Part shown: one piece after another, positions 11,931 through 60,173 of the stretch
Layout: each line of letters starts with the position of its first letter
How positions within the stretch are numbered: the stretch's first letter is position 1
Virus record (IMG/VR): IMGVR_UViG_3300047384_000085
Span: 1-64,000 of that record
Source: a virus
Strand: one strand, 5' to 3'
Length of the DNA stretch: 64,000 nt
The notes under the pieces: generated by a model
What the model was told of the DNA's origin: nothing
The model's input: the letters and a program-made list of their open reading frames with translations, nothing else
Databases searched by the model: none
Translations under genes and position numbers: made by a program

Positions 11931-11931
11931 A

Positions 11932-19457: not shown

Positions 19458-19458
19458 A

Positions 19459-19671: not shown

Positions 19672-19673
19672 AA

Positions 19674-20700: not shown

Positions 20701-20714
20701 ACTGGAGATATATA

Positions 20715-20987: not shown

Positions 20988-20991
20988 AGAT

Positions 20992-21558: not shown

Positions 21559-21700
21559 TGCAATCGTTTGGTTGTGTGAACAAAACAATATAGAGATCGA
21601 AGATATCAAAAAATATCTCTCGCCTTCTATTACCGAGAATCTTGAGAAGGAAGCGATGGATCTTAACTTTTTGCCTAAGGTAAATACTTTGGATGTATAA
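21449..21700 (+). CDS. 33: gp33-like late transcription co-activator
   Basis: The C-terminal half matches T4 gp33 in order: KMVETAVRTNGMSYLDAI (T4 KMVEEFGMSYLEAT), then a helix CEQNNIEIEDIKKYLSP, IT-E-N-LEKEA, and the final NTLDV corresponding to T4 NTLDFLL. gp33 bridges the sliding clamp and RNA polymerase and, with sigma gp55 (not in this window), activates TATAAATA late promoters. The start is uncertain: ATG 21449 lies nine bases after GAGGA, 21440 is too close, and 21515 would give a short form. It overlaps the preceding gene by about 110 bases, a large overlap for this genome. Confidence 0.75.
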   Translation: MVTTNQEEPTKENFLNKKKFSKMVETAVRTNGMSYLDAIVWLCEQNNIEIEDIKKYLSPSITENLEKEAMDLNFLPKVNTLDV

Positions 21701-21702
21701 TT

Positions 21703-37241: not shown

Positions 37242-39071
37242 ATGGCGACAACGATTAAATCAACAGCGTTAGACTTTCAGGCAATTAAGAACAACCTGAA
37301 GGAATACCTTCAACAAGAAAAGGAATTTAAAGACTTTAACTTTGAAGCTTCGGGTCTTTCAAATGTTCTTGATGTGTTGGCATACAATACACACATGAAT
37401 GCATTGACCGCTAACTTTGCCTTGAACGAAGCGTTTCTAGGAACCGCACAGTTGCGTAGTTCTTTAGTATCTCTTGCGGAGGGTATTGGTTATATCCCAG
37501 ACAGTAAGAATGCATCTCTTGCTATGATTAAAATGTCGTTGAATTTATCTGCCGTTTCGAACCCAAGTCCTAGAATTGCACTCGCAGCTGGATACAAATT
37601 TGCGACATCTGTTGATGGTGTTGATTATACATTTCAAACAACACAAACTATTTCGGCATCAAATGATGGTTTTGGTTTTTACGAATTTAAACAGGATAAT
37701 GGATCTAACATTATTCCTATTAAGGAAGGTATTGCAAAAACTAAAACCTTTATCTCTGGTGATAACACAGAAAACATTACATATATTATCCCAGATAAAA
37801 ACCTAGATCTTTCTACAGCGGTAGTTAAAGTATTCCCAAGTACTACTGCTATTAATTTCACAGCATATAGTAACATTCTAGACACTACTGTAATAAATGA
37901 GAATAGTACAATATACATTCTCAAAGAAATGCCTAATGGTCATTTCGAATTAACTTTTGGTAACGGTACTACTCTAGGAAAGACTCCTCAGCCAGGGAAT
38001 AAGGTTGTTGTTGAATACTTATCTGTTGCTGGTTCGGATGCAAACTTTGCTGAAGTGTTTGAACCAGTTAGTGCTGTTGCAAATGTTGCACCCAACATCG
38101 ATCAAGTTCCAACAGTTACTACAGAATCAAGAAGTTCTGGCGGAGCAGACAAAGAAACTGCGGAATCGATTCGTAAGAACGCACCTTTCCAATATGCATC
38201 TCAGAATCGAATGGTAACTCACGCAGACTACTCTTCTTTAGTGTTACGTAACTTCTCTTCTTTGATAAAGGATATCAAGACATGGGGCGGAGAAGACAAC
38301 ATTGTAAAAGAATACGGTTGTGTGTACATGTCGGTCTTATTTAATTCCGAAATACCACAGGCGACCATAGATTCGACTAAGATATCTATACTGGATTTAG
38401 CAGAACAATTGTCCATTGCTTCTTTTTCATTAAAATTCTCTGATCCAGTCAAGACATTTATCGAACTAGATACTAACTTTCAGTTTAACGAGAGGTTGAC
38501 TTCATTGACGTTAAACACGATTACATCTGATGTTCGGGAAGTTATCCGTACATACTTCACGAATAATACAGGAAAGTTCGGATTGTCATTCAGAAGATCC
38601 AACTTATTAACTTTGATAGATGATGTTTCTTCTGCCGTTTTATCTTCACGTACTGCTGTTAAGATGCAACAGAGAATCACGCCTATACTTGGCGGTAAGT
38701 ATGACTACAAATTAAAATTCCCAGTTGATATTGCTGCTCAAGATGATGATGAATACATTGTTTCGTCAAGTAACTTTACACTAAATGGTGTTAGTTGTAA
38801 GATAAGAAACAAATTAAGTAGTAACACGTTACAAGTAATCAACCTACAGGACAACCGAGTATTGGTAGATGATGTGGGTTACTATAATACAGACGGTAAT
38901 TTGCATTTGGTTGGATTTCAGGCAGATAGTCTGATATCAGGACAAACACAAATTAAAATTTCAGTTGTCGCTGCGAATCAATCTTCGATCACTCCTGTTC
39001 GGAATGATGTTTTGGAATTTGACGAAGCCGCTTCTCAGATAACTGGCGTACTAACTACAGCGACTAACTAA
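37242..39071 (+). CDS. 6: gp6-like baseplate wedge protein
   Basis: The 609-residue protein follows the gpJ/gp6 pattern: FQAIKNNLKEYLQQEKEFKD, GLSNVLDVLAYNTHMNALTA with NFALNEAFLGTA, and later ESIRKNAPFQYASQNRMVTH with ADYSSLVLRNF. gp6 forms the inner ring that links wedges and drives the dome-to-star change of the baseplate. T4 gp6 has 660 residues. It starts one base after the gp25 stop and overlaps the next gene by one base. Confidence 0.95.
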   Translation: MATTIKSTALDFQAIKNNLKEYLQQEKEFKDFNFEASGLSNVLDVLAYNTHMNALTANFALNEAFLGTAQLRSSLVSLAEGIGYIPDSKNASLAMIKMSLNLSAVSNPSPRIALAAGYKFATSVDGVDYTFQTTQTISASNDGFGFYEFKQDNGSNIIPIKEGIAKTKTFISGDNTENITYIIPDKNLDLSTAVVKVFPSTTAINFTAYSNILDTTVINENSTIYILKEMPNGHFELTFGNGTTLGKTPQPGNKVVVEYLSVAGSDANFAEVFEPVSAVANVAPNIDQVPTVTTESRSSGGADKETAESIRKNAPFQYASQNRMVTHADYSSLVLRNFSSLIKDIKTWGGEDNIVKEYGCVYMSVLFNSEIPQATIDSTKISILDLAEQLSIASFSLKFSDPVKTFIELDTNFQFNERLTSLTLNTITSDVREVIRTYFTNNTGKFGLSFRRSNLLTLIDDVSSAVLSSRTAVKMQQRITPILGGKYDYKLKFPVDIAAQDDDEYIVSSSNFTLNGVSCKIRNKLSSNTLQVINLQDNRVLVDDVGYYNTDGNLHLVGFQADSLISGQTQIKISVVAANQSSITPVRNDVLEFDEAASQITGVLTTATN

Positions 39072-42720: not shown

Positions 42721-45700
42721 ATGTCAACGACTTATACAGAAAACACCTTTGCTACCACCTATAAAGATGATTACGATAGAACTAAAAATTATCATAAGAT
42801 TCTATTCAATAGTGGTAAAGCGCTACAAGCAAGAGAGTTAACTCAGTTACAATCAGTAATACAAGAACAATTTTCTCAACTTGCTGGGAACTTATTCACT
42901 GAGGGTGCATCTATATCCCCAGGCTCCTTCCGAGTAGATAATGAATTAGAATTTATAAAAATAAGTTCTGCAACACCGTTTCCATCAGACCCAAGTGTAT
43001 TAGAAGGTCTAACTTTTGAGATCGGATCTACTGGAAGCAACAAAGAATTTCTGGTCGTCAATGCAATTGCTGCTGAAGGAGATGATCCAGATACACTAAT
43101 TGTTGAGTATACCAAAGATCAGGTAGGTGGAGAGACTGGTACTAGGGCTCAAGCCGGAGAATCTTTGATTGGTGCTTCTGCCGGAACCACGTACACATTT
43201 AGTGTCCAGTCTGAAAACACTTCTACTAATTCTGCTGTCGGTCTAGGTTCTGCTATATCTGTTGACGAAGGTCATTTCTTCATACAAGGTCACGTTGTTT
43301 ATTGTCCTCCACAAAAACTAATTTTCCGTAAATATGAAACTAATCAATCGAGTCGTTTCGGTTTTAAAGTTACGCAAGATATTGTAAATGTCGATGATGA
43401 CGTATCATTGTATGATAATCAGGGAGAGACTCCAAATCTAACATCGCCTGGTGCTGACAGATATCGTATCCAACTCACTCTTGCTGATGCGAGAGTAGTT
43501 TTAAATGAAGATGATTTCATTCCGATCGTTGAAGTTGTGGGTGGTCAAATTGTTTCTAAAACAACGACTAGTTCTGGATTTAAATCTATTAGAGATGAAA
43601 TGGCGATCAGAACGTATGAAGAATCTGGTGATTACGTTAAACGTTATTTCCGTGCTTCATTTGAACCCAATGATGACACAACTTTCAAGTTAAAAGTATC
43701 GCCTGGAACCGCATACGTTAGGGGTTATCGTATTAATAAAGATGCCTCTACGACTATCATTTCTGATAAACCGACCGATACTATTTCTAGGAATAACGAC
43801 ACCGTAACAGTTGACTATGCAAACTTTTTATTATATACTGACGGTAAGGGTAGTATGCCCGACTTCTCGACATGTGAAAAAATAGACATTCATGATGCTG
43901 CCAATGGTGGTGGTAACAAAATTGGTACATGTCGTGTTCGTGGTATAAACATTAGCGGTACTGTTGCTGGTACTAAAAAACTACATATTTTTGATCTACA
44001 GATAACGGACGAAACTAAGAGTATCCGTGATATTCAGTCTGTTGTGACTAATTCTGGAGCTCCGACTACCAACTACCTAAACATATATCGAACTAACAAC
44101 AGTACTAAACTTTATCAAAGTGAAAAGAAAGGTGTTATCTTCGATAGTCCCTTACCTAGACCCAAGACGTTTAGTGATCACGTATACACTGTAGCTAAAA
44201 AGAAAAGTTTTAGTCTTTCAGGAGCAACTACGCACTCATTCAGTAACAGTAGTTCTGACACCAGTCTATCTAACGGTAGTGCATGGATCGTTTCATCTGC
44301 GGATTCTGATGAGGTTTCTGATGCGGTTGTCACTTTCAGTGGAAATGATGCCGAGATTTCGGGTCTGGTTGACGGTGAAACTTACGACTTAATGTATTTC
44401 GAACAACTCAGTGCTCCAGTTAGAAAGAATAAAACACTGAAAACACATACCGCCACTTATAATATAGATTCTGACGGTGTAGGTCAAGAGTTAATTGAGT
44501 TAGGAAAAATCGACCTTTATAGAGTTAATTCTGTTAGAGAAGATAGCGCAAACGGTAGAAATGTACTAGGTGTGTTTGGTATTGATAATGGACAAAGAGA
44601 TACTCATTACGATGAAGCTAAACTACTCTTCAGGGGTGGTGGATTAAGGGATAGTTCTTCGGTTGTTCCGATCCACGTTTCTTTTGATTTCTTTGAACAC
44701 ACAGCAGGGGACTTCTTTGACGTTAGTTCATATAGTCTTCCTTATGTAGATATACCAGTACATAGAACTGCGAATAGTAGACTAGTAAATTTACGTGATG
44801 TGGTTGACTTACGTCCATCTATCAATCCATCTACTGGTGCGTTTAGTGTTTCTGACGTATTGGGTCTACCACAGTCAAACTCAGTCATAACCTGTGACGG
44901 TGAGTATTTTATGCCTCGTCTTGACAAATTAGTATTGTCAAAAGGTGGTGAGTTACGTTTGATTCAGGGTGTATCTTCAATGCAACCTAAGTATCCATCA
45001 ACTCCTGTAGACTGTATTGATCTCTACAAGATTCATATGAATGCGAACACAATGCATGTTAAAGATCTTGAGACTACTATTATTCCAAGACGTGGTTACA
45101 CGATGGAAGATATCAATAAGATCGAAAAACGAATCGATAAACTAGAGGAAGCAACAACGCTTTCCCTATTAGAGTCTAACGCAGCTAACGAAAGAATATT
45201 TGACGATACTGGTGAAGAAAGAATACACACAGGTTTCTTTGTAGATAACTTCAAGAATCAGAGATTCACTGATACTAAGAGTATTGAACACAGAGCGTCA
45301 ATGGATCCATCTAAGGGACTCATCAGACCATCATACAAATGTAAGTCGATTTTCTTAAAATATGACAGTGCCGAATCAACAGATACCGTTAAGAAAGGCG
45401 ATAACATCTATCTTAACCATACCGAGACTCCTTATTTGTCTCAAACTATGGCATCTAAGACTATCAATGTTAACCCATTCCACGTTGAGAAGACTCATGG
45501 TGATTTAGTATTATCACCGTCCAAAGATACTTGGAAGAATTTAGATCACCAAGCACCACTTGTGATTGATGCTGGTACAGAGTTTAATACTGATGCCGCT
45601 TTACTTTGGAACGACTGGGAAAACAGTTGGGGTGGTATAGCACCTAATGACCTACAAGTAGGTATGACTTCAGATCCTCTAGTACAACAAACATCTAAGA

Positions 45701-48700
45701 CTACACTAGAAGGTGAGAACACCTCATTTGTTGGTCAGAGAGTGACTACAGAACCAGGCGACTGGGTTAAGACTGGTTCTACGTCCAGTTCTCAGGTACT
45801 CCACACTGGTCAAGTGATCCTTGGTCAAGAGAAAAATGATGTAGTAGGTGCCTCGAAAGTTGTTACTAAGAGTAAAACTGTACCTTATGTACATAAAAGA
45901 ATTGCCAAACCTTGGTCGTTCCTGAAGACTGGTCATCACAACTGGGGGCCTAAAGTAGGTGATGAGTGGGTATTCACTGTTCCGAATGGTCATACGAAAC
46001 GAAACGGTAAATTCCATTTCGCTTCATGTGGTAGAAGTCGTCACCACGAACACTTTGATCTCTTCTATCAGAGAACATCGAATACTTCTGGTGAATCAGG
46101 TAATCCATACACAACCGCATCATGGATTCGAAACCCAGAACCACGTGTAGTTTATCTAAATGATGGTGATAAGTTCCTAATGAGAAGTGTCTCTAAGGGT
46201 AAAGCTCACTTAAATTGGTATAACCATTCTAAAGGTAAGAAGGGTAGGGCAAATGTCTACAATGGTTATGCTCCTAGAACGTCCACCGCACGTATCAAAG
46301 AATACTACACAGATGTTAGTACTGAACTAACAACTTACTCTAAAAATGTGGGTATTAAAGAAACAACCACTAACACGTCTCTTGCTAAAACAGATACGAT
46401 AACGACTGAGAATCAACACTTAACGACACAAGAGTACAACACTGCCACCGAAACAACTACTTCGGTTAACAGAATTACTGCTGAAAGTGTACTCACAGAA
46501 ATAGTTGATGAACGAGTGTTGCAGATAATCCATATCCCTTGGATGCGTTCTCGTAAGGTATCATTCAAGGCGACTGGACTAAGACCAAATACTCAGTACT
46601 TCCCATTCTTTAATGATACTGATGTGAGTCGTTTCTGTAAGACAAAGACTTTCTATAAGTCATCGACAATTGCAGATCCAAATTATGAAGATAGTGATAA
46701 TGCGAGAATGATTCCAGAAGTAGAACTACCTCCATCAACTCAACACTCCGAAGGTTTTGGTGACTTAATATCGAATAGCAATGGTGTTCTTGAGGGTGAG
46801 TTCGAGGTTCCTAATATAGTTGAACCTCCAATGCGATTCCCTACTGGAACAGCGATATTTGAATTATTTGATATTAGTGTTCCAGACAAGAAAAATGCAT
46901 TATCTTATGCTTCTCAGTTCTACACCGCTTCAGGTGTGATCGAGAGTCTGAGTGGTGAGTATACTATTACGAATACACGTGTATTAGAAGTTTCTGGTAA
47001 TGCAACCACTAAAGTAGATAATGATAGGTACACAACACATACAGTTAGTACAGATGAAGTTGTCACATTCGATACACAAACTGATGAAAAAACAGAGATT
47101 ACTAAATCTACGGTATATGGGCCAACAGAAACTAATTCTGTAACTATAGGTAACAGAACAGAACATGTCGGAACTAACGTAACATACGATTATGCTCAAG
47201 GTACTACTGGTTTAGCAGGACACGTTTATCAGAATAAAAAGTCTTCAATACCTAAATATGGTACTGGTGATGGTAAAGTTGTTGTTCAACCAAAAGGCGC
47301 TAAGTATAAGGACGAAGATCCGACTGCACAATCATTTGAGGTACTTGATCCAAATGGTATCTTCTTAACTCGTTTAAGATTGTTCTTTGAATCAAAACCT
47401 GGCACTAACGATGTTCAACATGGTGTTAGTATTGCGATTACCGAAGCACCTGCTGGTTTCCCTGATCGTACTCGAAGAGTTCCAGGCTCACTTGTTCATT
47501 TGGACGCTTCTGATGTTAAAACTATAAGTGGAAATATTAACATCGGTGACATGCTTGCACAAGGTACTGACTTTGTATTTGATGAACCCATCTTCTTAGA
47601 AGGCAATGGTGCTAACTATGCGATTATCATTAGATCTAAGTCTATGGAATATAAGATGTATATCTCCGAAGTACAGGACTTCTTATTAGGTTCTACGACT
47701 CAACGTATCCACAAACAACCGACTCTAGGTTCGTTATTTGTATCTCAGAACACAGATGTTTGGGAACCACGTGGTCAACAAGATCTTGCATATATGATGT
47801 ATCGTGCAGACTTTGAAAACAAAGGTAAAGTTGTTCTGAAGAACCGAAAGGTCAGACCAACAGTTCTTGTCGCAAATCCAATAATGACAGAAATTGAAGG
47901 AGACGTTACGACTGATTCTGATGGTAACCTGATTGCTGATAATACTAACATATTCGATGGGAACGGAAAGTCTTATGTGACGATATTCTGTGAAGGACAT
48001 GGTCTAAGAGCGGGAGACCGAACAAGAATATTTGGATTGAACGCTTCCGCATCTTACAATGGCATCCAAGGTGTTCAAATGAGTGGGTTACAAACCGTTG
48101 TGTCCGCAGATGCTACCAGTATCAAAATCTTAACTAACGGAACGGCAACATCGTCTGGAAGAACTGGAGGCGGTGAATTAAGATTGATGCAACACGTACC
48201 GTTTGAATTAATTAGACCAGATTTAGATGTTCTACAACCAGAAACAACTAACTACACGTTCTCTGCAAAAATGACACGTAATACACCATTAAGTGGTTTG
48301 GATATTAATGATCGATTTGCCATAGATGACAACTTCACTTTGATGCGAAATAAAACTAACGTAACTTTGGATAAAGATTACGCTGTATTTAACAGTTATG
48401 AAGAAGATACTGAAGGTTCTTTCGCAATAACGGATACTAATGATCGGAATAAATCCATGACCACTCATGTAGTCATGACTACGTCCGATACACGTGTAAG
48501 TCCAGTAATTGATATGGAATCGGCAGATCTTAAACTGACACATAATATTATCGACAATACCGATGAGAATATTGAAGATGAGTTTGAACTGTCTACATCT
48601 AGTGCTGACGAATATAGAGTCACAGGAGGATTAGACGAAGAAGAAGTGGCTGGAGGTACTGTTGCTTCCAAACACGTATGTATCCCTATCAGTCTAACGG

Positions 48701-49011
48701 AAACTTCTCGTGGTTTATCAGTTAAAATGAGTGTTAACAGACCACCAGACACAGGTATCGGTTTGTACTACAGAACTTGTCCGAAAGATGTGAACATAAA
48801 AGATATTTCTTGGGAATATGCTGAACCAGTAACTCAAATGCCATCAGATACAAATAAAAATACTTTCCGTGAGTATCAGTATTTGATAGGTGGTGAGACA
48901 GGTGAATTAGATCCATTTGATAGATTCCAATTGAAGATAACTTTTGGTAGTACATCATCTGCCAAGGTTCCAGTAGTTAAATCATTGAGGGCAATTGCAC
49001 TTGCAGACTGA
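42721..49011 (+). CDS. Giant baseplate/tail protein (DUF4815-like N-terminus)
   Basis: At 2096 residues this is the largest protein of the window. Its N-terminus (YDRTKNYHKILFNSGKALQA followed by RELTQLQSVIQEQFSQLAG) is of the type I recall as DUF4815, found in large structural proteins of marine T4-like phages. A coiled segment near residue 800 (EDINKIEKRIDKLEEATTLS) is followed by Thr/Ser-rich beta stretches, a KTKTF-type region, and a C-terminal beta domain. In T4 the following positions encode gp9-gp12; this protein may combine such functions as the outer wedge carrying fibres. Its 3' end overlaps the next small gene by 17 bases. Confidence 0.7.
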   Translation: MSTTYTENTFATTYKDDYDRTKNYHKILFNSGKALQARELTQLQSVIQEQFSQLAGNLFTEGASISPGSFRVDNELEFIKISSATPFPSDPSVLEGLTFEIGSTGSNKEFLVVNAIAAEGDDPDTLIVEYTKDQVGGETGTRAQAGESLIGASAGTTYTFSVQSENTSTNSAVGLGSAISVDEGHFFIQGHVVYCPPQKLIFRKYETNQSSRFGFKVTQDIVNVDDDVSLYDNQGETPNLTSPGADRYRIQLTLADARVVLNEDDFIPIVEVVGGQIVSKTTTSSGFKSIRDEMAIRTYEESGDYVKRYFRASFEPNDDTTFKLKVSPGTAYVRGYRINKDASTTIISDKPTDTISRNNDTVTVDYANFLLYTDGKGSMPDFSTCEKIDIHDAANGGGNKIGTCRVRGINISGTVAGTKKLHIFDLQITDETKSIRDIQSVVTNSGAPTTNYLNIYRTNNSTKLYQSEKKGVIFDSPLPRPKTFSDHVYTVAKKKSFSLSGATTHSFSNSSSDTSLSNGSAWIVSSADSDEVSDAVVTFSGNDAEISGLVDGETYDLMYFEQLSAPVRKNKTLKTHTATYNIDSDGVGQELIELGKIDLYRVNSVREDSANGRNVLGVFGIDNGQRDTHYDEAKLLFRGGGLRDSSSVVPIHVSFDFFEHTAGDFFDVSSYSLPYVDIPVHRTANSRLVNLRDVVDLRPSINPSTGAFSVSDVLGLPQSNSVITCDGEYFMPRLDKLVLSKGGELRLIQGVSSMQPKYPSTPVDCIDLYKIHMNANTMHVKDLETTIIPRRGYTMEDINKIEKRIDKLEEATTLSLLESNAANERIFDDTGEERIHTGFFVDNFKNQRFTDTKSIEHRASMDPSKGLIRPSYKCKSIFLKYDSAESTDTVKKGDNIYLNHTETPYLSQTMASKTINVNPFHVEKTHGDLVLSPSKDTWKNLDHQAPLVIDAGTEFNTDAALLWNDWENSWGGIAPNDLQVGMTSDPLVQQTSKTTLEGENTSFVGQRVTTEPGDWVKTGSTSSSQVLHTGQVILGQEKNDVVGASKVVTKSKTVPYVHKRIAKPWSFLKTGHHNWGPKVGDEWVFTVPNGHTKRNGKFHFASCGRSRHHEHFDLFYQRTSNTSGESGNPYTTASWIRNPEPRVVYLNDGDKFLMRSVSKGKAHLNWYNHSKGKKGRANVYNGYAPRTSTARIKEYYTDVSTELTTYSKNVGIKETTTNTSLAKTDTITTENQHLTTQEYNTATETTTSVNRITAESVLTEIVDERVLQIIHIPWMRSRKVSFKATGLRPNTQYFPFFNDTDVSRFCKTKTFYKSSTIADPNYEDSDNARMIPEVELPPSTQHSEGFGDLISNSNGVLEGEFEVPNIVEPPMRFPTGTAIFELFDISVPDKKNALSYASQFYTASGVIESLSGEYTITNTRVLEVSGNATTKVDNDRYTTHTVSTDEVVTFDTQTDEKTEITKSTVYGPTETNSVTIGNRTEHVGTNVTYDYAQGTTGLAGHVYQNKKSSIPKYGTGDGKVVVQPKGAKYKDEDPTAQSFEVLDPNGIFLTRLRLFFESKPGTNDVQHGVSIAITEAPAGFPDRTRRVPGSLVHLDASDVKTISGNINIGDMLAQGTDFVFDEPIFLEGNGANYAIIIRSKSMEYKMYISEVQDFLLGSTTQRIHKQPTLGSLFVSQNTDVWEPRGQQDLAYMMYRADFENKGKVVLKNRKVRPTVLVANPIMTEIEGDVTTDSDGNLIADNTNIFDGNGKSYVTIFCEGHGLRAGDRTRIFGLNASASYNGIQGVQMSGLQTVVSADATSIKILTNGTATSSGRTGGGELRLMQHVPFELIRPDLDVLQPETTNYTFSAKMTRNTPLSGLDINDRFAIDDNFTLMRNKTNVTLDKDYAVFNSYEEDTEGSFAITDTNDRNKSMTTHVVMTTSDTRVSPVIDMESADLKLTHNIIDNTDENIEDEFELSTSSADEYRVTGGLDEEEVAGGTVASKHVCIPISLTETSRGLSVKMSVNRPPDTGIGLYYRTCPKDVNIKDISWEYAEPVTQMPSDTNKNTFREYQYLIGGETGELDPFDRFQLKITFGSTSSAKVPVVKSLRAIALAD

Positions 49012-49234
49012 TAAATTAATACCAGTAGAGGGTCATGGGGATTTAGCCCGTGACCCAAATACTGGGGCTATAGTTAATATAAATAGTAAAAAGATACAAG
49101 AATCTCGTCAGAGAAGAAATATCAAAAGACAACGTTTACAAGAACAAGAAGAATTGAAAGCAAAAGTTGAAAACTTAGAGTACGATATCTCTGATATAAA
49201 AGACATGCTTTCGCAACTTATAGAGAAACTATAA
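48995..49234 (+). CDS. Small coiled-coil tail protein
   Basis: The 79-residue product reads GDLARDPNTGAIVNINSKKI, a short N-terminal module I recall in marine phages next to tail fibre genes, then a Lys/Arg/Gln-rich helix (QSRRNIK-type) and a leucine-zipper-like coiled coil ending in SQLIEKL. Start is TTG 48995, four bases after GAGG; TTG 49001 is the alternative, since no ATG is available upstream of the module. It shares one base with the next fibre gene. It may be a trimerisation or fibre-attachment factor. Confidence 0.65.
   Translation: MHLQTDKLIPVEGHGDLARDPNTGAIVNINSKKIQESRQRRNIKRQRLQEQEELKAKVENLEYDISDIKDMLSQLIEKL
49078..49085 (+). promoter_or_regulatory. T4-type late promoter inside small gene
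   Basis: TATAAATA within the coiled-coil gene, about 150 bases upstream of the repeat fibre start at 49234. Use as an internal promoter is inferred from the consensus match. Confidence 0.45.
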
Positions 49235-51897
49235 TGTCAAGTAGAAAACCGATAGTAGTACTACACGAATCTTTCAGAAAATTAGTTGAAAAGTTCAACG
49301 TCTTATCTAACAATGTGGGTGATCCAGTAGATCTGAACACTTACAATGATAGTGATCTTGTAACCGTTATCAACGAAATTGATGCTACGTTTGATGCACA
49401 TCGAGGGGAGATCCTATATCCTAACCCAGATGTGCCGTTCCGAACAGCTGCTCAATTACCTAACACACACTTAAAGATCAGTACTAATCAAAGTGGTGGT
49501 ACAGACATCGACATTGATGCGGGTCAAGATTTTCTTGTTGATGCGGTTCGTCATATCAATCTTACTAGTGTTAATTTTGACGGTGACTATTCGGGCAATT
49601 ATGTCTCTAAGGTTGACGGAACATCTCTAGATTCTGTTGGTGGGGCAATTACCGTAACAGGTAACTCTACCTACACTCTCACAACTGGTGGTAACTTTAC
49701 TCAGACCACTACTGGACATATTGATCTAAATGCATCTAACAATATTGTTCTAGATGCGTCTGGAGATATTACTCTTGATGCTGACGGTAACGACATTTAC
49801 TTTAAGAATGGTCAGGGTGGTGGAGATACCGTAACCCATAATCTTGCAGACAATGCTCATTATACCGTGACTACACCAAGTCATTACACTGTTGATGTGA
49901 ATGGCGACATAACCTTTGATGCTGAAGGTAACGACATTATCTTTAAGAATGGTGGTGGTAATGACCAAGTAACTCATAATCTTGGTGATAATGGTACATA
50001 TACAATAAGTACACCCGCCAACTTGAAACTTGATGCGGTAGGGGATATCGTCCTTGATGCAGATGGTAACGACCTAGTCTTCAGAAATGGCGATGGGGGT
50101 GATTCTTGTCGAATAAACCTTAATGACGATGCCACATTCGATATACATGTTCCTTCTGATTTCTTAGTAGATGCAGCCGGTGATATCACCCTAGATGCAG
50201 CTGGAAATAATATAACCTTAAAAGACGGTGGTACAACACGTCAAGAATATACTCTAGGTGCAACAACCACAATCGCAACAACTGGTAACCGAACCGAGAC
50301 TGTTACAGGTAATGTATCCGACAGTGCGGCTGGAACATACTCTATCGGTGCGACTGGAAACATGGACATCGATACACGAGGAACACTCGTAGTAAACACT
50401 GGTGGTAACAACGTACAATATACTACTGGACATATTGATCTCAATGCGACTCAGAATATCGTATTAGATGCGGACGGTGACATTTATCTGGATGCTGGTG
50501 ACAGTGACATATTCTTCCGTAGAGACGGTGTTTCCTTCGCAAAATGGCAGATGGGTATCCCTAACAATCCTAATGCGCTTCACTTAAAGTCTGAACAAGG
50601 TGACTTCATTGCGGCCGCAGTTGGAGATGTTATCCTAGACGCTGGTGATAGTGATATCTTATTCCAACGTAATGGTGTTGAGTTTGTAAAAACTCGAATG
50701 GGTGTTGCTGGCGCACCATCACGCACTCGAATTATATACGGTCAAGGTGGGGTTGAGTTTGAAGCGGCTGGCGACATCACACTAGATGCTGGTGGTGAAG
50801 ACATCAGACTAAAAGATGATGGCGTTGAGTTTGGTAAACTCCGTCATATGGGTTCTAACCAATTAGGTATCTACTCAAATCAAACACTTGCATTATCATT
50901 CGAAGATTCAGATGCAGTATTCAATAACGATGTAAACATTGAGAACGATCTTGATGTTGACAGACATTTGAACGTAGATGGTGATACCACATTAAATGGT
51001 CATGTTGATCTGGGTAATGCGGCTGCAGATGACATTTCTATAAACGGTAAAGTTGATACTAATATTTTACCAAAAACAAATAATGCAAACAACCTTGGAT
51101 CGTCCACTCTTCAATGGAGACACGCATGGTTTGACGGAACAGTATTTGCGGACAACCTAGATGGTGATAGTGGTACTATCGCAAACTTCAACATCAACAC
51201 CAACACGATAAGTAACAGCACTGCGGGATTAAAAGTTGACGTAGCGGGGGATATCATTTTTGATGCTGGTGGTGACGACATTAAATTTAAGATGGGTGAT
51301 TCTGATCGTATTGAATGGGATTTGGGTAATAATCAATCGTCAGTAACGAATAAAGTCCACAAAAAGAATCTTGTTTTTGATGTTGCTAAGAATATTTATC
51401 TTGATGCTACCGAAGGTAATGTACACTTCCGAGACTCTGATAATGATACAAGAGTCCAGTTCGATTACAATCATGCACGATCCGCTGGAACCGAGATGAA
51501 AGTCTTTGGTGGTAGTCTGACAATGGATGTTGCTGGTGACATTGTACTTGATGCAGACGGTGGTGATGTACTACTTAAAGACGGTGGAACTCAGTTCGGT
51601 AGATTCCAGAATACTTCGGGTAATCTGATAGTAAGATCAGGTGATACCACTGCAATGACATTCAGTGGTGCGAATGTCACAATGGCGGGTCAGATCACTC
51701 TACCTAGTTCAGACCTAGATACTACTGAGAAAACAGTTCACGGTGCGATTAACGAAGTAGACAGTGATCTGGGTGAGAGAACAAGTTTATCAAGTTTCTA
51801 TGATGGTCACAATCAAGACATTGTTACCGCACTAAATAGAGTTGCGGCAAGGGTAGTAGATATCTATGACGTTGACGGCACACTACTAAATAGTTAA
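49234..51897 (+). CDS. Repeat-built tail fibre
   Basis: The 887-residue protein has a helical head (RKLVEKFNVLSNNV), then many copies of a motif approximating A-G-D-I-x-L-D-A-x-G-x-D-I-x-F-K-x-G, for instance DASGDITLDADGNDIYFKNG, DAVGDIVLDADGNDLVFRNG, and DVAGDIVLDADGGDVLLKDG. They alternate with spacers of varied length. This is typical of a trimeric beta-helical shaft. Near the end it has NEVDSDLGERTSLSS, a common fibre segment. It probably projects from the baseplate. Homologous repeats at the DNA level could recombine. Confidence 0.75.
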   Translation: MSSRKPIVVLHESFRKLVEKFNVLSNNVGDPVDLNTYNDSDLVTVINEIDATFDAHRGEILYPNPDVPFRTAAQLPNTHLKISTNQSGGTDIDIDAGQDFLVDAVRHINLTSVNFDGDYSGNYVSKVDGTSLDSVGGAITVTGNSTYTLTTGGNFTQTTTGHIDLNASNNIVLDASGDITLDADGNDIYFKNGQGGGDTVTHNLADNAHYTVTTPSHYTVDVNGDITFDAEGNDIIFKNGGGNDQVTHNLGDNGTYTISTPANLKLDAVGDIVLDADGNDLVFRNGDGGDSCRINLNDDATFDIHVPSDFLVDAAGDITLDAAGNNITLKDGGTTRQEYTLGATTTIATTGNRTETVTGNVSDSAAGTYSIGATGNMDIDTRGTLVVNTGGNNVQYTTGHIDLNATQNIVLDADGDIYLDAGDSDIFFRRDGVSFAKWQMGIPNNPNALHLKSEQGDFIAAAVGDVILDAGDSDILFQRNGVEFVKTRMGVAGAPSRTRIIYGQGGVEFEAAGDITLDAGGEDIRLKDDGVEFGKLRHMGSNQLGIYSNQTLALSFEDSDAVFNNDVNIENDLDVDRHLNVDGDTTLNGHVDLGNAAADDISINGKVDTNILPKTNNANNLGSSTLQWRHAWFDGTVFADNLDGDSGTIANFNINTNTISNSTAGLKVDVAGDIIFDAGGDDIKFKMGDSDRIEWDLGNNQSSVTNKVHKKNLVFDVAKNIYLDATEGNVHFRDSDNDTRVQFDYNHARSAGTEMKVFGGSLTMDVAGDIVLDADGGDVLLKDGGTQFGRFQNTSGNLIVRSGDTTAMTFSGANVTMAGQITLPSSDLDTTEKTVHGAINEVDSDLGERTSLSSFYDGHNQDIVTALNRVAARVVDIYDVDGTLLNS

Positions 51898-51924: not shown

Positions 51925-54882
51925 ATGTCAACAGATTTAATTTTAAAGATTAAAAATGCAAATGGAGATTTGCAACGAGTTTCTTCGGATGAAGAAAAGT
52001 ATCTTGCATCTGTTGCTGGTGTTAGGTTATTGAACTATGAATTTGATGTGGAAACTGTTGGTAATTTAGTTAGAGGTCAGAATAATCTAGGTTACGATTT
52101 TCCGTCAGGTTCATATGCAGACTCAAAATACAATGAAGTTGTGGGTACTCATCCAGAGTCTCACATAACAGCTACTACCACTACAACTAACTTAGACACT
52201 CTTGCTAGTTCTGCTGTTCTGAATTCAACTAATAAACCGTATCTTAGAAACTGGATAACTACCACTGCGGATGTAAATCGACCTTTAGTTTACAAAACAA
52301 TAAATGGTAAACCTAGTCTTCAGGAGATAAAGGATTCGGACTTAAATACTCTTGCAGATAGACTAAATGGTCTTATTGCACAACATGAACTTACTGGAGT
52401 TTATCGACTAGATTCAGCAGGTTTTGATCCTAGTGAAACCAATTGGCGAAGACATGTCGTTGGAAAATTTGGTAGTTTGGACGATAGAAAAATTTTCGCC
52501 ACCGACAACAGGACAGATGGTACTAGTAAAAACTATCATATCTGGCAAAAAACAGGCAGTTTCGATATTGGTCAAACCGACTCGTGTGCAATTGTAGCTT
52601 TAGATAGAGTACTCAGTGGTAACGATGCCGGTGATTTAACTAACACTCCTCCTACTATTAAAACTCTCCCACTGAATCAGTTGGGTCACGTTCTCGGACA
52701 AAGATGTAAGTATCGCCGTGGAATTGAAGGTAATATCGGTACATATCAATTAAGAAGTGATCTTCAAGGCGCACCTGATGCGACAGGAACTTGGAAATCG
52801 GTAGGTAGTGCTTTAGATACTAGAAACACTAAGGAAGATCAATATCATATACACATTAGAGAGTCGGTATTTTCTAGCACATATGTAGGAACTTATACTG
52901 GTGAATATACTGGCGGATACAACAGAATGTATGCTGGTGATTACATTGGTGACTTCATATTAAGTTTTACAGGCGACTTTATAAAAACTTATGTTGGGAA
53001 CTACACTGCTGAGTACGTAGGTAACTACAATAGGGATGTTTCGACAAACTTCGGTGGTAATTATGTTGGTGACTATATTGATAACTATACTGGTAACTAT
53101 ACTGGTCAGTACGCTGGTGATTATTCGGGCAACTTCGTAAGAACCTTTACTGGAGATTATGTTAATGATATACCAAAGAATTTTACCGCTCACCGTTTAA
53201 CAGATTACACCAAAGAGTATACAGGTGCAACTTTCACCGCTAATTATACTGGTGACTATACTGGTAACTATGTTGGTAACTATGCATCCACCTCTGTTAA
53301 GACATATAGCGGAATAGACTATACTGGTAACTACGCATCGATATCATCAACAAAAGATTCTGTTTTTGAGTTTGCGAGTACAAGTGTTGCCAATTATACT
53401 AGCGTAACTAGTACACGAGCTCGTGTCGAACAATACATCGGTAATTATGAAAAGATTAGAACTGGTAACTTTACTGGTAATTATTCACGAAACTTTACTG
53501 GAACTTATACAGGAAACTATATTATAACCTATACTGGTAACTATACTGGTAACTATCACGGTAACTATACTGGTAACTACACATCAACATCGACATTGAC
53601 AGTTGCACAAACATTTACTGACAATCTGGTATTTACAGGTCTAACGACATTCAGTACACGAGTAAGTACAAGAAAAGCATATCCAACCACTAGTCAGAAT
53701 TGGACAAGAACACGAAGTGGTACACCCTTTAGTTATACTGGTAACTACCAAAGAATTTATGTAAGATATTATCCATCGGCTTGGTCAACTGCGCCGATTG
53801 GTGGTGCTACAGGTGTATCAGCACCGCAGTATTATGGTTCCAGAACTAGGAAAAGATATGGCACTGCTGTTGAAAAAACTAGAGATGGTACTCCAACTTA
53901 TGTAGGTAACTATCACGGTCGTGGCGTAAAACAATGGCTTGAATATGCGAACACATATATTGGTGGCGAGTATACGAAAGAAATTGACTATGTCGGTAAT
54001 TTCGATACTGACTATATTGGTAACTTTGCATCGGTTTCGGTTAATTATAAAACTCAGGGTGAGACGGTCGAAGGCTTGTTAGGTGGTTACTCAAACCCAG
54101 ACTCCTATGGATACAACAAATTGCGTAAGCGAAGTATTAGTGTTGACATCAACAAAGATTTCACAGGAAATTACACTTCCGTTACAAGAACTAATGACTT
54201 TACTGGTAACTTTAACAGTATCGTACAAAAACTTAGAGAGGCTACTTTCACAGGTGACTTCGTACAACCATTTACTGGTAACTATGTTGGTGACTACGCA
54301 TCGACTAGAACTATAAACTATACTGGTGACTTTGTTGGTGTATACGCTAGGCCGTTTGTTGGTAACTATACTGGTAACTACAACTCTACTGCGTTAGAAA
54401 CATACATAGGAACTTCAACAAGAGACACCGACTCTATTAAAAATTATACTGGTAATTTTGCTCGTACGTTTGTCGGTAACTTCCAGAGTACTCGAATAAC
54501 TGATTATATTAGTTCTGCTATATACGTTTCGACAAGAGAAAGATCGGTCAATTATGCTTCTACCAGTACATCTAATATATTAAAAGATTTCGTGGGTGAT
54601 TATACAGGTAACTTCATTAGTCAACATCTGTACACAAGTACCAGAAACTATTTACTTCATCGTTCGGTCAACTATATCAATGAAGAAGCTTCAGGTATAA
54701 ATTACACTAGTACAAGTACAAGAGAAAGATACGAAGAGTTTATCGGAACCTATACTGGTGACTATCAAAGAGGTTATACGCAACATCGAAATGTAGACTA
54801 TACTGGTGATTATCTGGGATCTACCATTAGACCAACTTTATCTACACATAGAACATATACTTTATATGTAAGATACAATTAA
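51925..54882 (+). CDS. Tail fibre with Y-T-G-N repeat shaft
   Basis: The 985-residue protein starts with a non-repetitive domain of about 315 residues (MSTDLILKIKNANGDLQRVS). From there to near its end it is dominated by short repeats of the form Y-x-G-N/D-Y/F, for example TGNYTGNYHGNYTGNYT, interspersed with ASTSxxNY and TRxR segments. Tyr, Thr, Gly, Asn and Ser make up most of it. It is followed by a palindromic leader and the next fibre. No receptor-binding tip or chaperone domain is obvious. An extended, tyrosine-rich fibre is the likely structure, but this is inference. Confidence 0.7.
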   Translation: MSTDLILKIKNANGDLQRVSSDEEKYLASVAGVRLLNYEFDVETVGNLVRGQNNLGYDFPSGSYADSKYNEVVGTHPESHITATTTTTNLDTLASSAVLNSTNKPYLRNWITTTADVNRPLVYKTINGKPSLQEIKDSDLNTLADRLNGLIAQHELTGVYRLDSAGFDPSETNWRRHVVGKFGSLDDRKIFATDNRTDGTSKNYHIWQKTGSFDIGQTDSCAIVALDRVLSGNDAGDLTNTPPTIKTLPLNQLGHVLGQRCKYRRGIEGNIGTYQLRSDLQGAPDATGTWKSVGSALDTRNTKEDQYHIHIRESVFSSTYVGTYTGEYTGGYNRMYAGDYIGDFILSFTGDFIKTYVGNYTAEYVGNYNRDVSTNFGGNYVGDYIDNYTGNYTGQYAGDYSGNFVRTFTGDYVNDIPKNFTAHRLTDYTKEYTGATFTANYTGDYTGNYVGNYASTSVKTYSGIDYTGNYASISSTKDSVFEFASTSVANYTSVTSTRARVEQYIGNYEKIRTGNFTGNYSRNFTGTYTGNYIITYTGNYTGNYHGNYTGNYTSTSTLTVAQTFTDNLVFTGLTTFSTRVSTRKAYPTTSQNWTRTRSGTPFSYTGNYQRIYVRYYPSAWSTAPIGGATGVSAPQYYGSRTRKRYGTAVEKTRDGTPTYVGNYHGRGVKQWLEYANTYIGGEYTKEIDYVGNFDTDYIGNFASVSVNYKTQGETVEGLLGGYSNPDSYGYNKLRKRSISVDINKDFTGNYTSVTRTNDFTGNFNSIVQKLREATFTGDFVQPFTGNYVGDYASTRTINYTGDFVGVYARPFVGNYTGNYNSTALETYIGTSTRDTDSIKNYTGNFARTFVGNFQSTRITDYISSAIYVSTRERSVNYASTSTSNILKDFVGDYTGNFISQHLYTSTRNYLLHRSVNYINEEASGINYTSTSTRERYEEFIGTYTGDYQRGYTQHRNVDYTGDYLGSTIRPTLSTHRTYTLYVRYN
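52880..54815 (+). repeat. Degenerate 12-base coding repeat (Y-T-G-N)
   Basis: The unit TATACTGGTAAC and variants recur throughout. A nearly perfect run lies at about 53529-53580 and others near 53087-53115 and 53245-53285. Repeats of this type permit slippage or recombination that changes fibre length in steps of four codons. Confidence 0.8.
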
Positions 54883-55001: not shown

Positions 55002-56471
55002 ATGTCATCCACCATTAAAATCAAACGGAGCAATACGTCTGGTAATGCTCCTGACACCAATAACATTGTAGAAGGCGAACTCGCCCTCAATACCGCAGAT
55101 GGTATCCTATACTCTCGTGGCGGTAATGATATATTTGAAGTAGGCGCAAACTTAACTACTCCATTTACTGTCAACCCATCTACCGCAGCAGACACTATTA
55201 CTCTTGGATCGACTACTCAAGAAGGCACTATCACTCTTGGTAGAAGTACCTCAACCAACTTAATTAACATTGGTAATGCTCAGACAGCAAGTGGTGCAAC
55301 ACAAACGATTAATATCGGTGGTAACAGCGCCAGTGGCGGTGACACTGTATTGAATTTAGCCGCAAATTCAAATACTGCCGCAGATACAGCAGTGACTATT
55401 GGTTGCTCTAATGGAACTGGTACTCACAGTGTTGCGATTCGTGGTGCTAGTACATTTACGAATGGTGCGGTTGCCTTTGATGGTAACAACTTTTCTGTAA
55501 ATCCAGCAGGAACCACTAACACCATCACTATGGGTAAAACAACTGGCACAGGTTTAATTACAATCGGTCGAAGTACCGCTAATCAAGATATATCTATTGG
55601 TTCAGCTACAGGTGGTTCAGGTGCATCCCAAACCACCTCGATTGGGTGCAACATGGGTTCAGGCGGGACAAAGACCGTCAATATCGGTTCTTTAGGTAGT
55701 AGTGCTGGCGCCAGATATATAAATATCGGTACAAACGCAAGCACTAATGGTTTAAGCGCTACGACTACGATTGGTAGTTTACATACAGCTGCAGTGAGCA
55801 ATAATTATCTCTATGGTATTACGAGGATTAAAAAGACCAATGGACAACCTTTAATTGTAGAGAGTACGTCATCTACTACTAATACTACTTTACAAGGTAT
55901 TCAATTATACAATACTACTAGTGCTTCAGCCTTTAAAATCGGCAATTACTTGTCGTTGGCTCAAGTTCAAAGTTATTATGGTTCTGGTTCTGGCGCATCG
56001 ATACAATTTTTATATGGTCAGAGCGGAGAAAAACATCGGTTAGATGCAAGTGGTAAATTTGGGATAGGTGTCTCGTCCCCACTTGAAGCACTTCACGTTA
56101 ATGGTAATATCATTGCTACAGGTAATGTGACTGCATATTACTCTGACGAAAGACTGAAAGACTTTAAGGGAGCAATTCCAGATGCTCTAGATAAAGTTAA
56201 TAAACTCACAGGATATTACTATAAACCAAACGCATTAGCGCATTCTTTGGGTGTGGATAATACCGAACTAGAGGTCGGTGTATCTGCTCAAGAGGTTGAG
56301 GAAGTATTACCTGAGATTGTAACTAAATCTGCGGTAGGTCAAGACGAGTTCGGAGAAGATTATAAAAGTGTTTCTTATGACAAACTAACACCCCTGTTGA
56401 TAGAAGCAGTAAAGGAGTTGACCCAAAAGGTTGCGTATCTAGAATCTAAAATTAGTGAGAAAGGCGAATAA
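55002..56471 (+). CDS. Tail fibre with C-terminal S74 self-cleaving chaperone
   Basis: The 489-residue protein begins with an attachment module (STIKIKRSNTSGNAPDTNNI), followed by a Thr/Gly/Ile-rich shaft of repeats such as TITLGRSTSTNLINIGNAQT. The last ~100 residues are an intramolecular chaperone of the peptidase S74 family: YYSDERLKDFKGAIP with the catalytic Ser-Asp, VSAQEVEEVLPEIV, and YDKLTPLLIEAVKELTQKV. These domains trimerise the fibre and then cut themselves off. The N-terminal module is shared with the protein at 60955. Confidence 0.9.
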   Translation: MSSTIKIKRSNTSGNAPDTNNIVEGELALNTADGILYSRGGNDIFEVGANLTTPFTVNPSTAADTITLGSTTQEGTITLGRSTSTNLINIGNAQTASGATQTINIGGNSASGGDTVLNLAANSNTAADTAVTIGCSNGTGTHSVAIRGASTFTNGAVAFDGNNFSVNPAGTTNTITMGKTTGTGLITIGRSTANQDISIGSATGGSGASQTTSIGCNMGSGGTKTVNIGSLGSSAGARYINIGTNASTNGLSATTTIGSLHTAAVSNNYLYGITRIKKTNGQPLIVESTSSTTNTTLQGIQLYNTTSASAFKIGNYLSLAQVQSYYGSGSGASIQFLYGQSGEKHRLDASGKFGIGVSSPLEALHVNGNIIATGNVTAYYSDERLKDFKGAIPDALDKVNKLTGYYYKPNALAHSLGVDNTELEVGVSAQEVEEVLPEIVTKSAVGQDEFGEDYKSVSYDKLTPLLIEAVKELTQKVAYLESKISEKGE

Positions 56472-58227: not shown

Positions 58228-58710
58228 ATGAGTAGTAGAAAATGGTTAGATAATGCTTTTTGGGAAGCACCAGAAACCAAAGATGACGTGACTTGCATTC
58301 TGCAAATCATTGACGACAATGACAGAAAAGTCGAACAAGTAATGAGACTTAAAAAGTTCACTAAATCTGGAAATGAAAATACAGATTTCGCAGAACTTAT
58401 TGAAGTTCTTGGTGAAGACCTAATCACCAAAAATACTGAACAACGTCTAAAACGCAAAGCTGCTGAGAAAGAAGAGAAACGAGTTCGTGATATCGAACAC
58501 GAGAAAGCACGTGCCTTAGAAAAACTTTTCGGATATAAAATGGAAGCATTCGAAGTTGAAGAAATTAAGAAATGTAAAAACCGAAAACTAAAGGCAAAAC
58601 TTAGACGAGCAAAAAGTAAAATTGAAGTCAATCTATATTCGATGATGATTCTTCAAGAACATATTGCTAATGAGGAGAAAGAGAATGCCGAAGAAGAAAC
58701 AGAAAAGTAA
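58228..58710 (+). CDS. Charged helical protein, possible tail-fibre chaperone
   Basis: The 160-residue protein is mainly charged helix (KRKAAEKEEKRVRDIEHEKA) with a Cys in the EEIKKCKNRKLKAKLRRAKS stretch, and is likely coiled-coil. AGGAGATTGAG precedes the ATG. Position after the adhesin genes suggests an assembly factor, as with small fibre chaperones in other T4-like phages, but nothing proves it. It overlaps the next transferase gene by 26 bases. Confidence 0.55.
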   Translation: MSSRKWLDNAFWEAPETKDDVTCILQIIDDNDRKVEQVMRLKKFTKSGNENTDFAELIEVLGEDLITKNTEQRLKRKAAEKEEKRVRDIEHEKARALEKLFGYKMEAFEVEEIKKCKNRKLKAKLRRAKSKIEVNLYSMMILQEHIANEEKENAEEETEK

Positions 58711-59449
58711 AGGATTTCTGGTTGTTGCTTCTCGCAAAAGATCTTTCTATGTTTACGCAACCAATCTAATAGATTCGATTAGAGATTACTATGAAGACGC
58801 TAATATAACCTTAGTGTGTGAAGAGTGGATGTTGGATGACACTGGAAGAGATTTAGCGGACAATATAATAATTTGTGATGATCATTACCGTGCCAAACTC
58901 TGGGGCATGGCTCAATCTCCTTATGACATCACGATGTATGTTGACGCTGACATGCAGTGCGAACACGAAGATGTCGTAAAGATCTGGGATGAAATGAAAG
59001 ACCACGATGTTGTTTTCTCTGCATTGACAAAAGAACGTGATTACATTTACGCTGAATATGAATTTGACACTCCAGATCAAGGAAAGATATCTTTTGATCT
59101 GTGTGGTGGTGTCTGTCTTTACGATATGACTAAACCTATTGTCCGTGAGTTCATGGAAGATTGGTGGGATCTCACCAGAAGGCAAATGGATCATAAATGG
59201 TGGCCCGAAGGTTACCCAAAAAGTCTTAAACAGTGGGATCAATTCTCTCTTTGGTGGTTGACGAACAAAGAAGAAAAATATAAAGATTTGAAGATTGGTA
59301 TATTTGATGATGATATGAGATGGAATTATTATAATGCTTGGAACTACGAAATTACTAAACCAGATAACCCTATTATTTTAAGACATTTTTCTTGTGGTGT
59401 TTTCAAAGATTTTCATTACTATACAGATATAGGAAGTAATGAGAGGTAA
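58685..59449 (+). CDS. Putative GT-A glycosyltransferase in fibre cluster
   Basis: ATG 58685, behind GAGGAGAAAGAG, is preferred to an upstream in-frame ATG. The 254-residue protein has a basic start, a strand (GFLVVASRKRSFYVYATNLI), AQSPYDITMYVDADMQCEHE with a D-x-D near residue 84, DLCGGVCLYDMTKPIV, and W-D-Q-F near 185, a GT8-like arrangement. Its place among fibre genes, far from the other transferases, suggests that its substrate may be a fibre or baseplate protein. Inference only. Confidence 0.65.
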   Translation: MPKKKQKSKGFLVVASRKRSFYVYATNLIDSIRDYYEDANITLVCEEWMLDDTGRDLADNIIICDDHYRAKLWGMAQSPYDITMYVDADMQCEHEDVVKIWDEMKDHDVVFSALTKERDYIYAEYEFDTPDQGKISFDLCGGVCLYDMTKPIVREFMEDWWDLTRRQMDHKWWPEGYPKSLKQWDQFSLWWLTNKEEKYKDLKIGIFDDDMRWNYYNAWNYEITKPDNPIILRHFSCGVFKDFHYYTDIGSNER

Positions 59450-59456
59450 TATTATT

Positions 59457-60173
59457 ATGGATTTTCAAAAAATGCGAAGCATACCAATAAAGAATAAAGA
59501 ACTTCTCTCTATCTTAGACAGTTTTGTTCGTGTTAGGACATATAACGAGGAAGCGTTCACGAAGTACATGCATTGTGCAGGCAATCAACATTCTGATGCT
59601 GATAAGGCGAAATTTGTTTCTGATGAATACCTTCACGAAATCATGAGTATGGGAGATGATCATGGTGGTTTCCCAGAGACTATGCACGGTTATGAAATGA
59701 GAATGTGTAACAGGGAACACCAATTCTTCAAGAGAACAATACCGAAAACTCCTGATGAGATTAGTTATAGATCGGAGGTAATGTCAAAATTACAAGACTC
59801 TCAAGAAGATATAATGACTTGGTTGGGTTGTAGAAATAATGCATTATCAGCAGTTTATCCACCAAGTGGGTTTATCTCTTGGCACAATAATGCAAATGCA
59901 GCTGCATGGAATTTAATTTTCACTTACAGCGAAACAGGTGATGGTTACTTCAAATATTGGGACACGGAAAAGAAAGAAATTGTTTACATGCATGATGAAC
60001 CAGGCTGGCAATGCAAAGCTGGATACTTTGGTCATTATGGAGAACCCGATAAACTTTTATATCACGCAGCCGCTTCTAAGTGTTGGAGACATACAGTTTC
60101 TTTTTGTTTTGATAGATCAGAAACAAGTGAATTTATTAGAGAAGAGATAATTGATGAAATTAGTTCAGAATAA
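59457..60173 (+). CDS. Possible 2OG-Fe(II) oxygenase-like protein
   Basis: ATG 59457 follows AGAGG at a normal distance; ATG 59439 overlaps the previous gene and is less likely. The 238-residue protein has YPPSGFISWHNNANAAAWNL near residue 130, FTYSETGDGYFKYWD, and CWRHTVSFCFDRS near 215. This recalls a marine phage family sometimes annotated as 2OG oxygenases, where a H-x-D and a late H bind iron. Here the first pair reads H-N-N, so the iron site is questionable. It may act with the transferase just upstream. Confidence 0.45.
   Translation: MDFQKMRSIPIKNKELLSILDSFVRVRTYNEEAFTKYMHCAGNQHSDADKAKFVSDEYLHEIMSMGDDHGGFPETMHGYEMRMCNREHQFFKRTIPKTPDEISYRSEVMSKLQDSQEDIMTWLGCRNNALSAVYPPSGFISWHNNANAAAWNLIFTYSETGDGYFKYWDTEKKEIVYMHDEPGWQCKAGYFGHYGEPDKLLYHAAASKCWRHTVSFCFDRSETSEFIREEIIDEISSE

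Follow-up and report, generated by a model that had tools for sequence, protein, structure and literature searches.

The locus examined here poses two questions: what kind of protein is encoded by a very long, tyrosine-rich repeat gene in the genome of a marine virus of bacteria, and do the genes that accompany it act on its product? The gene (51,925–54,882; 985 amino acids, an open reading frame (ORF) for which homologues were found) lies in IMG/VR record IMGVR_UViG_3300047384_000085, a virus record of 64,666 bases, of which positions 1 to 64,000 were analysed. This 64,000-nucleotide stretch is referred to as the window; coordinates are those of the window, and the tyrosine-rich gene with its sub-features, the three genes that accompany it and the VrlC-like, 79-residue and S74 genes described below all lie on the plus strand. 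Its product belongs to a family of proteins built on [YF]-x-G-[ND] tetrads, hereafter YxG proteins, and three downstream genes, coding for a small charged protein, a glycosyltransferase-like protein and an oxygenase-like protein, accompany the family wherever the available sequence is long enough to tell. The reading that we favour, and which we consider somewhat probable, is that the YxG protein is an adhesion fibre with a repeat shaft, and that enzymes encoded beside it decorate this fibre.

The first 315 residues (51,925–52,869) are of ordinary composition and form a conserved domain, kept in Phage C48C1 and in IMG/VR relatives, which is probably an attachment domain. From about residue 316, Tyr or Phe occupies every fourth position, with Gly at +2 and Asn or Asp at +3. 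This tetrad region (52,870–54,840), delimited by Tyr/Phe spacing and counts of strict units, is followed by a conserved C-terminal end, ...YTLYVR (54,841–54,879). Strict [YF]xG[NDTE][YF] units numbered 44 in residues 316–985, compared with a mean of 0.73 and a maximum of 4 in 2,000 composition shuffles. Within the repeat, the ratio of observed to expected Tyr/Phe autocorrelation was 3.3 at lag 4, 3.0 at lag 8, 2.8 at lag 12 and 2.6 at lag 16, and dropped to 0.1–0.5 at lags between multiples of 4. Where two such residues were spaced by four, the make-up of the unit was [Y44/F22]-[T29/V15/I8]-[G47/R8]-[N30/D14/T9].

These results confirm the repeat described in an earlier note on this DNA, with qualifications on coverage and sequons. 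The statement that more than 600 residues consist largely of Y-x-G-N/D-Y/F units proved an overstatement, because strict units cover 31% of the 670-residue repeat (any Y/F-xxx-Y/F, 42%) and residues of about 555–690 are much less regular; this interruption of the shaft (residues 555–689, 53,587–53,991, defined by Tyr/Phe spacing) matched no Pfam and no PHROG family. At the DNA level, the proposed degenerate 12-base repeat with a near-perfect run around 53,529–53,580 was borne out. Tandem Repeats Finder reported 12-bp arrays at 53,055–53,106, 53,241–53,283 and 53,461–53,579, the last being the most regular (about 9.9 copies), and exact head-to-tail 12-mers begin at just seven positions (53,082–53,083 and 53,529–53,533), the repeat DNA being degenerate and mostly scrambled by synonymous codons. 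The sequons described as frequent (N-x-T) did not fare as well: the 19 N-x-S/T sites compare with 13.7 ± 3.1 in shuffles, and enrichment is not established because 35 of 500 shuffles reached the observed number.

Searches of Pfam and PHROG with the YxG protein, and of PHROG with its N-terminal domain alone, returned no family, so that membership of a known tail-fibre family was not found by sequence. Sequence searches of the PDB with the window protein, the C48C1 protein and a 40-residue YTGN stretch gave no relevant match either, in agreement with the earlier view of the protein as a fibre unlike known ones. Just one of 50,697 phage records, Phage C48C1, contained a relative, a 3,347-residue ‘hypothetical protein’ whose N-terminal domain is 39% identical in the alignment; the remaining matches of this domain in phage records had E-values of 0.7 or worse. 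IMG/VR yielded two relatives by whole protein and 34 by N-terminal domain (29–39% identity). Complete YxG ORFs, 76 in 59 contigs chosen for having a closed YxG ORF, spanned 368–2,506 residues measured stop to stop, and the longest family members were the C48C1 protein and the distant L133 protein of YxGQ type (at least 3,708 residues). Residues T979, L980, Y981 and R983 were invariant in 16 aligned sequences, and TLY.R likewise ends the L133 protein. Beyond position 330, the 76 ORFs contained 12.5% Arg and 0.2% Lys, a ratio of about 60:1, from which the window protein differs (39 Arg, 18 Lys). Literature searches on tyrosine-rich or tetrapeptide phage fibres, YTGN/VTGN strings, cyanophage repeat fibres and C48C1/Kyanoviridae, as well as on tetrapeptide glycofibrils, fibre or virion glycosylation and oxygenase–transferase–fibre combinations, found no paper apparently describing the YxG family, which is not proof of absence. 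Judged from these alignments and searches, YxG proteins constitute an undescribed family with a conserved N- and C-terminus.

Could the frame itself be an artefact? The sequence comes from a metagenomic contig and repeats are prone to misassembly. The frame, however, is open in the closest relative discussed here (L002, 84% identical in alignment), in complete ORFs of all 59 selected contigs and in the annotated genome of C48C1; an assembly artefact or spurious reading frame is refuted for the family, and we give it a negligible probability.

A different objection is that the repeat might form no regular shaft at all, acting as a flexible, disordered sticky polymer with Tyr/Arg stickers and Gly/Ser/Thr/Asn spacers. 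The composition of the family would suit such a polymer (T 15%, Y 12.7%, R 12.5%, G 11.4%, K 0.2% and 18 Cys in 81,271 residues), as would the AlphaFold confidence of about 30: AlphaFold2, run on the full-length protein with an alignment of 16 sequences, gave a mean predicted local distance difference test score (pLDDT) of 29.8, a predicted template modelling score (pTM) of 0.21 and no usable shaft, a result that also counts against our own reading. For the stacked-tyrosine beta-helix suggested in the earlier note, this model speaks neither for nor against. A low pLDDT is nevertheless to be expected too when a trimer is modelled as a single chain and few sequences are aligned. Moreover, 72–97% of Tyr/Phe spacings in 15 YxG proteins were multiples of 4, with periodicity extending to lag 36, a strict register that disordered sticker proteins do not need. 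We regard the disordered polymer as unlikely.

The earlier note had also proposed that length change by slippage could tune host range, and here the evidence was divided. Among 77 pairs of YxG ORFs, 33 were at least 95% identical; seven of these contained internal gaps, all of them multiples of 4 residues (24 residues in L012 versus five contigs, and 32+32 and 60+60 residues in two genes of L110 versus L111), and the 24-residue gap corresponds to a 72-bp loss between near-identical 36-bp units. Such length differences in whole units between near-identical relatives partly support the proposal. On the other hand, 26 of the 33 pairs had no internal gap, the seven gapped pairs amount to three comparisons, and 145 of the 445 gap lengths in all 77 pairs were multiples of 4; short-read assembly may, in addition, collapse repeats. 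The window gene itself lends slippage no support: its repeat DNA is mostly scrambled, and it differed from L002 by a single 8-residue indel situated in an irregular stretch. Nothing ties length to host, and a repeat-number switch of host range or length appears quite improbable.

The surroundings of the gene are those of a fibre. A VrlC-like/DUF4815 baseplate protein (42,721–49,011; 2,096 residues, Pfam PF16075, matching VrlC of HTVC008M) marks the start of the fibre region and is followed by a 79-residue protein (48,995–49,234) whose C48C1 counterpart is annotated as a virion structural protein. The YxG gene is the third gene after the VrlC/DUF4815 gene and stands next to a tail-fibre gene with an S74 endosialidase-chaperone domain (55,002–56,471; Pfam PF13884, PHROG tail-fibre matches). 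T4-type baseplate genes lie upstream; judged by one baseplate-wedge gene (37,242–39,071), the records closest to the window are those of C48C1, Methylophilales phages and the pelagiphage HTVC008M. Passages of PMC7029224 describe the genes that follow VrlC in pelagimyophages as tail fibres of a host-recognition cluster. By gene order, the YxG gene occupies the site at which T4-like marine phages carry tail fibres. The gene immediately upstream (49,234–51,897) codes for an 887-residue fibre-like protein with D-G-D-I-x-L-D-A-like repeats and DUF5649/DUF2345 matches, and likewise precedes the YxG gene in four relatives (L006, L007, L034 and L035).

Comparison of the window's neighbouring proteins with the YxG loci by tblastn revealed three genes that co-occur with the YxG gene, in the order YxG fibre, helical protein of about 155 residues, DxD glycosyltransferase-like protein and oxygenase-like protein. 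In the window, the first codes for a charged, probably helical protein of 160 residues and possible assembly factor, as we tentatively name it (58,228–58,710; defined by alignment), the second for a glycosyltransferase-like protein of 261 residues with an invariant DxD (58,664–59,449; D80-A-D82, numbered from 58,706) and the third for an oxygenase-like protein of 244 residues (59,439–60,173; H149-x-N151 ... H209 ... R217). The transferase-like and oxygenase-like genes overlap each other, and the overlaps between cassette genes suggest co-translation. Across 34 YxG loci, the 160-residue gene was present in 25 and the transferase-like gene in 24. The nine loci without the former are the very ones whose sequence breaks off within the YxG ORF, and in the tenth locus without the latter the sequence stops just before the position of the gene.

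The reverse searches gave the same picture, in two contig sets that overlap and in which many contigs are near-duplicates of a few phages. Anchoring on the transferase (80 contigs kept of 249 relatives) placed a YxG ORF upstream in 75 contigs, in 71 of them at 482–603 bp; the other five had less than 2.5 kb of upstream sequence each, and no YxG ORF occurred in the 745,621 bp downstream of the transferase. Two or more tandem YxG ORFs were seen at 18 of the 80 transferase loci. Anchoring on the oxygenase-like gene (80 contigs kept of at least 566 relatives) recovered the transferase in 80, the 160-residue gene in 77 and a YxG ORF in 73, the seven contigs without one having at most 3.2 kb of upstream sequence. 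As an independent test, all three genes follow the repeat in L003/L133, found by repeat alone (32, 50 and 41% identity). Each of the three cassette genes matched one of the 50,697 phage records, again C48C1, and in 84,980 prokaryote genomes the transferase had a single match, on a contig of a metagenome-assembled genome (MAG) carrying the YxG repeat and all three genes. Identity across loci was about 72% in most for the transferase and about 43% for the oxygenase-like protein; the transferase is ~72% identical between phages whose YxG N-terminal domains share ~35%. Collectively, the YxG fibre gene and the three genes are strictly linked where sequence allows. The MAG contig with the full set (L132) is 142 kb long, is assigned to a Sphingobacteriales MAG and probably stems from a phage whose sequence was binned with that of a bacterium.

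What might the two putative enzymes be? All 15 aligned transferase-like sequences, down to 43% identity, carry the DxD metal/nucleotide motif D80-A-D82 unchanged. Glycos_transf_2 matched sub-threshold in 11 of 13 members (best E 0.0011), and is a weak signal since ExbD did likewise in 12 of 13. Alignment with hhalign to a GT8 comparison set (WaaJ/WaaO of E. coli and two phage GT8-like proteins) was limited to the DxD stretch, with an E-value of 0.02 and then, with a deeper alignment, 0.0026 (probability 11.5%); for unrelated controls, compared with the shallower transferase alignment, the E-values were 0.35 and 0.71. Glycosyltransferases recur among the weak structural matches, which include glycogenin, LgtC and GtrB, and rank 4 in BFVD was, weakly (E 0.024), a TET-associated glycosyltransferase domain protein. 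A PF01501 search of the record matched 6,232–6,753 and 532–795 only, not the 58,664 gene. In the oxygenase-like protein, H149-x-N151, H209 and R217 were invariant in the alignment, and hhalign to phage 2-oxoglutarate (2OG) oxygenases gave weak matches over 53–54 columns (E 0.002–0.0045, probability 8–14%; control E 0.33). These data may point to a GT-A-like glycosyltransferase and to an oxygenase-like protein, respectively. We keep the labels at ‘glycosyltransferase-like’ and ‘oxygenase-like’ because the matches are sub-threshold or weak and the putative iron site reads H-x-N; membership of GT8 is not claimed for the former (Pfam cut-off missed, alignment confined to DxD), nor membership of the 2OG family for the latter (H-x-N site, no Pfam match).

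If the parts are put together, the YxG gene would encode the shaft of a long adhesion fibre in a T4-like marine myovirus, where it would serve as a tail fibre or as a whisker of the baseplate. Attachment to the baseplate is probably the role of the N-terminal domain, while the [YF]-x-G-[ND] tetrads would form an extended regular shaft and the YTLYVR end would close it. Production of the fibre would go along with that of the small helical protein as a helper, of a GT-A-like glycosyltransferase and of the oxygenase-like protein, the latter two most likely modifying Tyr, Thr or Asn/Asp side chains of the repeat in the cell before assembly, which would yield a decorated, sticky or protected rod. 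Were the repeat an extended strand, strict alternation would turn Thr and Asn/Asp to the face opposite Tyr and Gly, leaving a polar face free for modification. Decoration is favoured because of the position in the fibre cluster, the two-way linkage, the L133 test, the restriction of phage-record matches to C48C1, the ~72% identity of the transferase and the presence of sugar-enzyme genes in the window. The earlier proposal that Tyr, Thr or Asn is a glycosylation target accordingly gains indirect backing from the conserved pair tied to the gene, and none from the sequons, which were not clearly enriched.

Several points weigh against this reading. The linkage counts measure consistency, not independent events, because many contigs are near-duplicates and the two sets share members; that the genes lie in a fibre cluster is, besides, no proof that the fibre is the substrate, and the place of the YxG protein in the virion is something that we infer. 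The transferase passed no Pfam curated cut-off (Glyco_transf_8, Glycos_transf_2), its AlphaFold model was weak (pLDDT 54.7), the best PDB match of that model in Foldseek had an E-value of 0.061, and VIA-align was uninformative (Z at or below 6.5, mixed families). The oxygenase-like protein had no Pfam match to any oxygenase family and, in place of the acid of an HxD/E...H iron triad, carries Asn (H-x-N).

The shaft might instead be left unmodified, with the three genes as co-inherited neighbours that act on the host envelope, for example by O-antigen glycosylation against superinfection. The many glycosyltransferases of pelagimyophage host-recognition clusters are read in this manner, as modifiers of host lipopolysaccharide, in passages of PMC7029224; the window has a separate sugar-enzyme cluster (442–13,292), and three genes separate the fibre gene from the 160-residue gene. 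Against this, the transferase and oxygenase-like genes track the YxG gene without exception where sequence allows, unlike GT25 genes, which were found in 6 of 11 records searched and in neither S-RIM2 nor C48C1. We find host-envelope modification doubtful.

Oxygenase and transferase pairs of the TET/JBP kind are known in phages, and the two proteins might modify phage DNA in a similar way, their adjacency to the fibre being incidental. The weak BFVD match to a TET-associated domain protein fits such a role. The oxygenase-like protein, however, lacks a Pfam match to oxygenase families, and in every YxG locus with enough sequence the overlapping genes come after a structural gene, not after replication genes, leaving DNA modification very unlikely.

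Were the enzymes to act on the fibre, as we favour, these phages would build a modified repeat fibre whose modification kit travels with the fibre gene. This would explain a set of unassigned marine-phage transferases otherwise taken for host-envelope modifiers, and would offer a compact genetic system for studies of repeat-protein glycosylation. Modified or not, the very long phage shaft proteins of the YxG family form a class that is widespread and lacks annotation.

Elsewhere in the window, the sugar-enzyme cluster comprises a GT8 gene (6,037–6,828) over the Pfam cut-off, GT25 genes over the cut-off at 11,932 and 12,642 and at or below it at 4,304 and 11,220, a nucleotidyltransferase with a HAD domain (7,451), a radical SAM/SPASM gene (3,355) and a lipase-like gene (10,243). 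A Zeta-toxin/AAA kinase-like gene was identified at 15,225–16,103 (PF06414, E 1.4e-8), and a separate, clear 2OG-Fe(II) oxygenase at 21,703–22,314 (PF13640, E 2.7e-11), away from the fibre cassette.

Among known systems, the closest is CDS0201 of C48C1 (OQ984149, Kyanoviridae), which shares the N-terminal domain (39%), YxG/YxR tetrads, the C-terminal end and the downstream CDS0202–0204, but is more than three times longer, has inserted globular domains and is rich in RxRxS units. In this genome (L001) shaft inserts were located at 17,431–18,027 and 19,231–21,735 (L001 coordinates), the 199-residue insert having a weak match to a PHROG of tail fibres (E 0.003). The S-RIM2 cyanophage structural protein SWTG_00067 has similar tetrads, [VL]TG[ND] (hydrophobic-T-G-N/D), and a similar position, two genes downstream of a ‘virion structural protein’ that itself comes after a VrlC/DUF4815-matching gene. 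It differs in its aliphatic first position, in the lack of detectable N-terminal homology and in having no transferase/oxygenase cassette; given these tetrads and the different N-terminal domain, it was dropped as a YxG homologue. Its VTGN stretch matched PDB entries mostly by period and glycine content (for instance an ARID-domain protein), and such matches serve as leads only. The C-terminal triple-stranded beta-helix of T4 gp5, with interdigitated chains and a VxGxxxxx motif according to passages of PMC4576200, is likewise a short hydrophobic-x-Gly repeat in a phage fibre. Its repeat, however, is of eight residues with Val instead of Tyr and the window protein has no sequence match to it; a gp5-type helix was rejected, the YxG period being 4 with Tyr/Phe first.

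A strict tetrapeptide repeat is also present in the CryoSeek glycofibril TLP-4 (PDB entry 9ikm, sequence XTAS); glycans reportedly coat its linear tetrapeptide repeats. The TLP-4 chain had no sequence match to the YxG protein, 9ikm having matched the S-RIM2 VTGN stretch only. By analogy, the locus might be a self-contained phage glycofibre cassette, in which a dedicated oxygenase and transferase, encoded alongside the fibre, add hydroxyl groups and sugars to Tyr, Thr or Asn all along a giant shaft of aromatic tetrapeptides. Such a cassette would be the viral equivalent of the tetrapeptide-repeat glycofibrils found in the environment; we put this forward tentatively, as a possibility that falls short of probable. 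The pelagimyophage host-recognition cluster offers a further likeness, in a T4-like marine phage with a variable fibre region after VrlC and many glycosyltransferases (as passages of PMC7029224 describe it), although HTVC008M and the other pelagimyophage isolates in the phage collection had no match to the YxG protein or the cassette. Taken together, we rate the YxG proteins as resembling known phage adhesion fibres, and the enzyme cassette as the unusual part.

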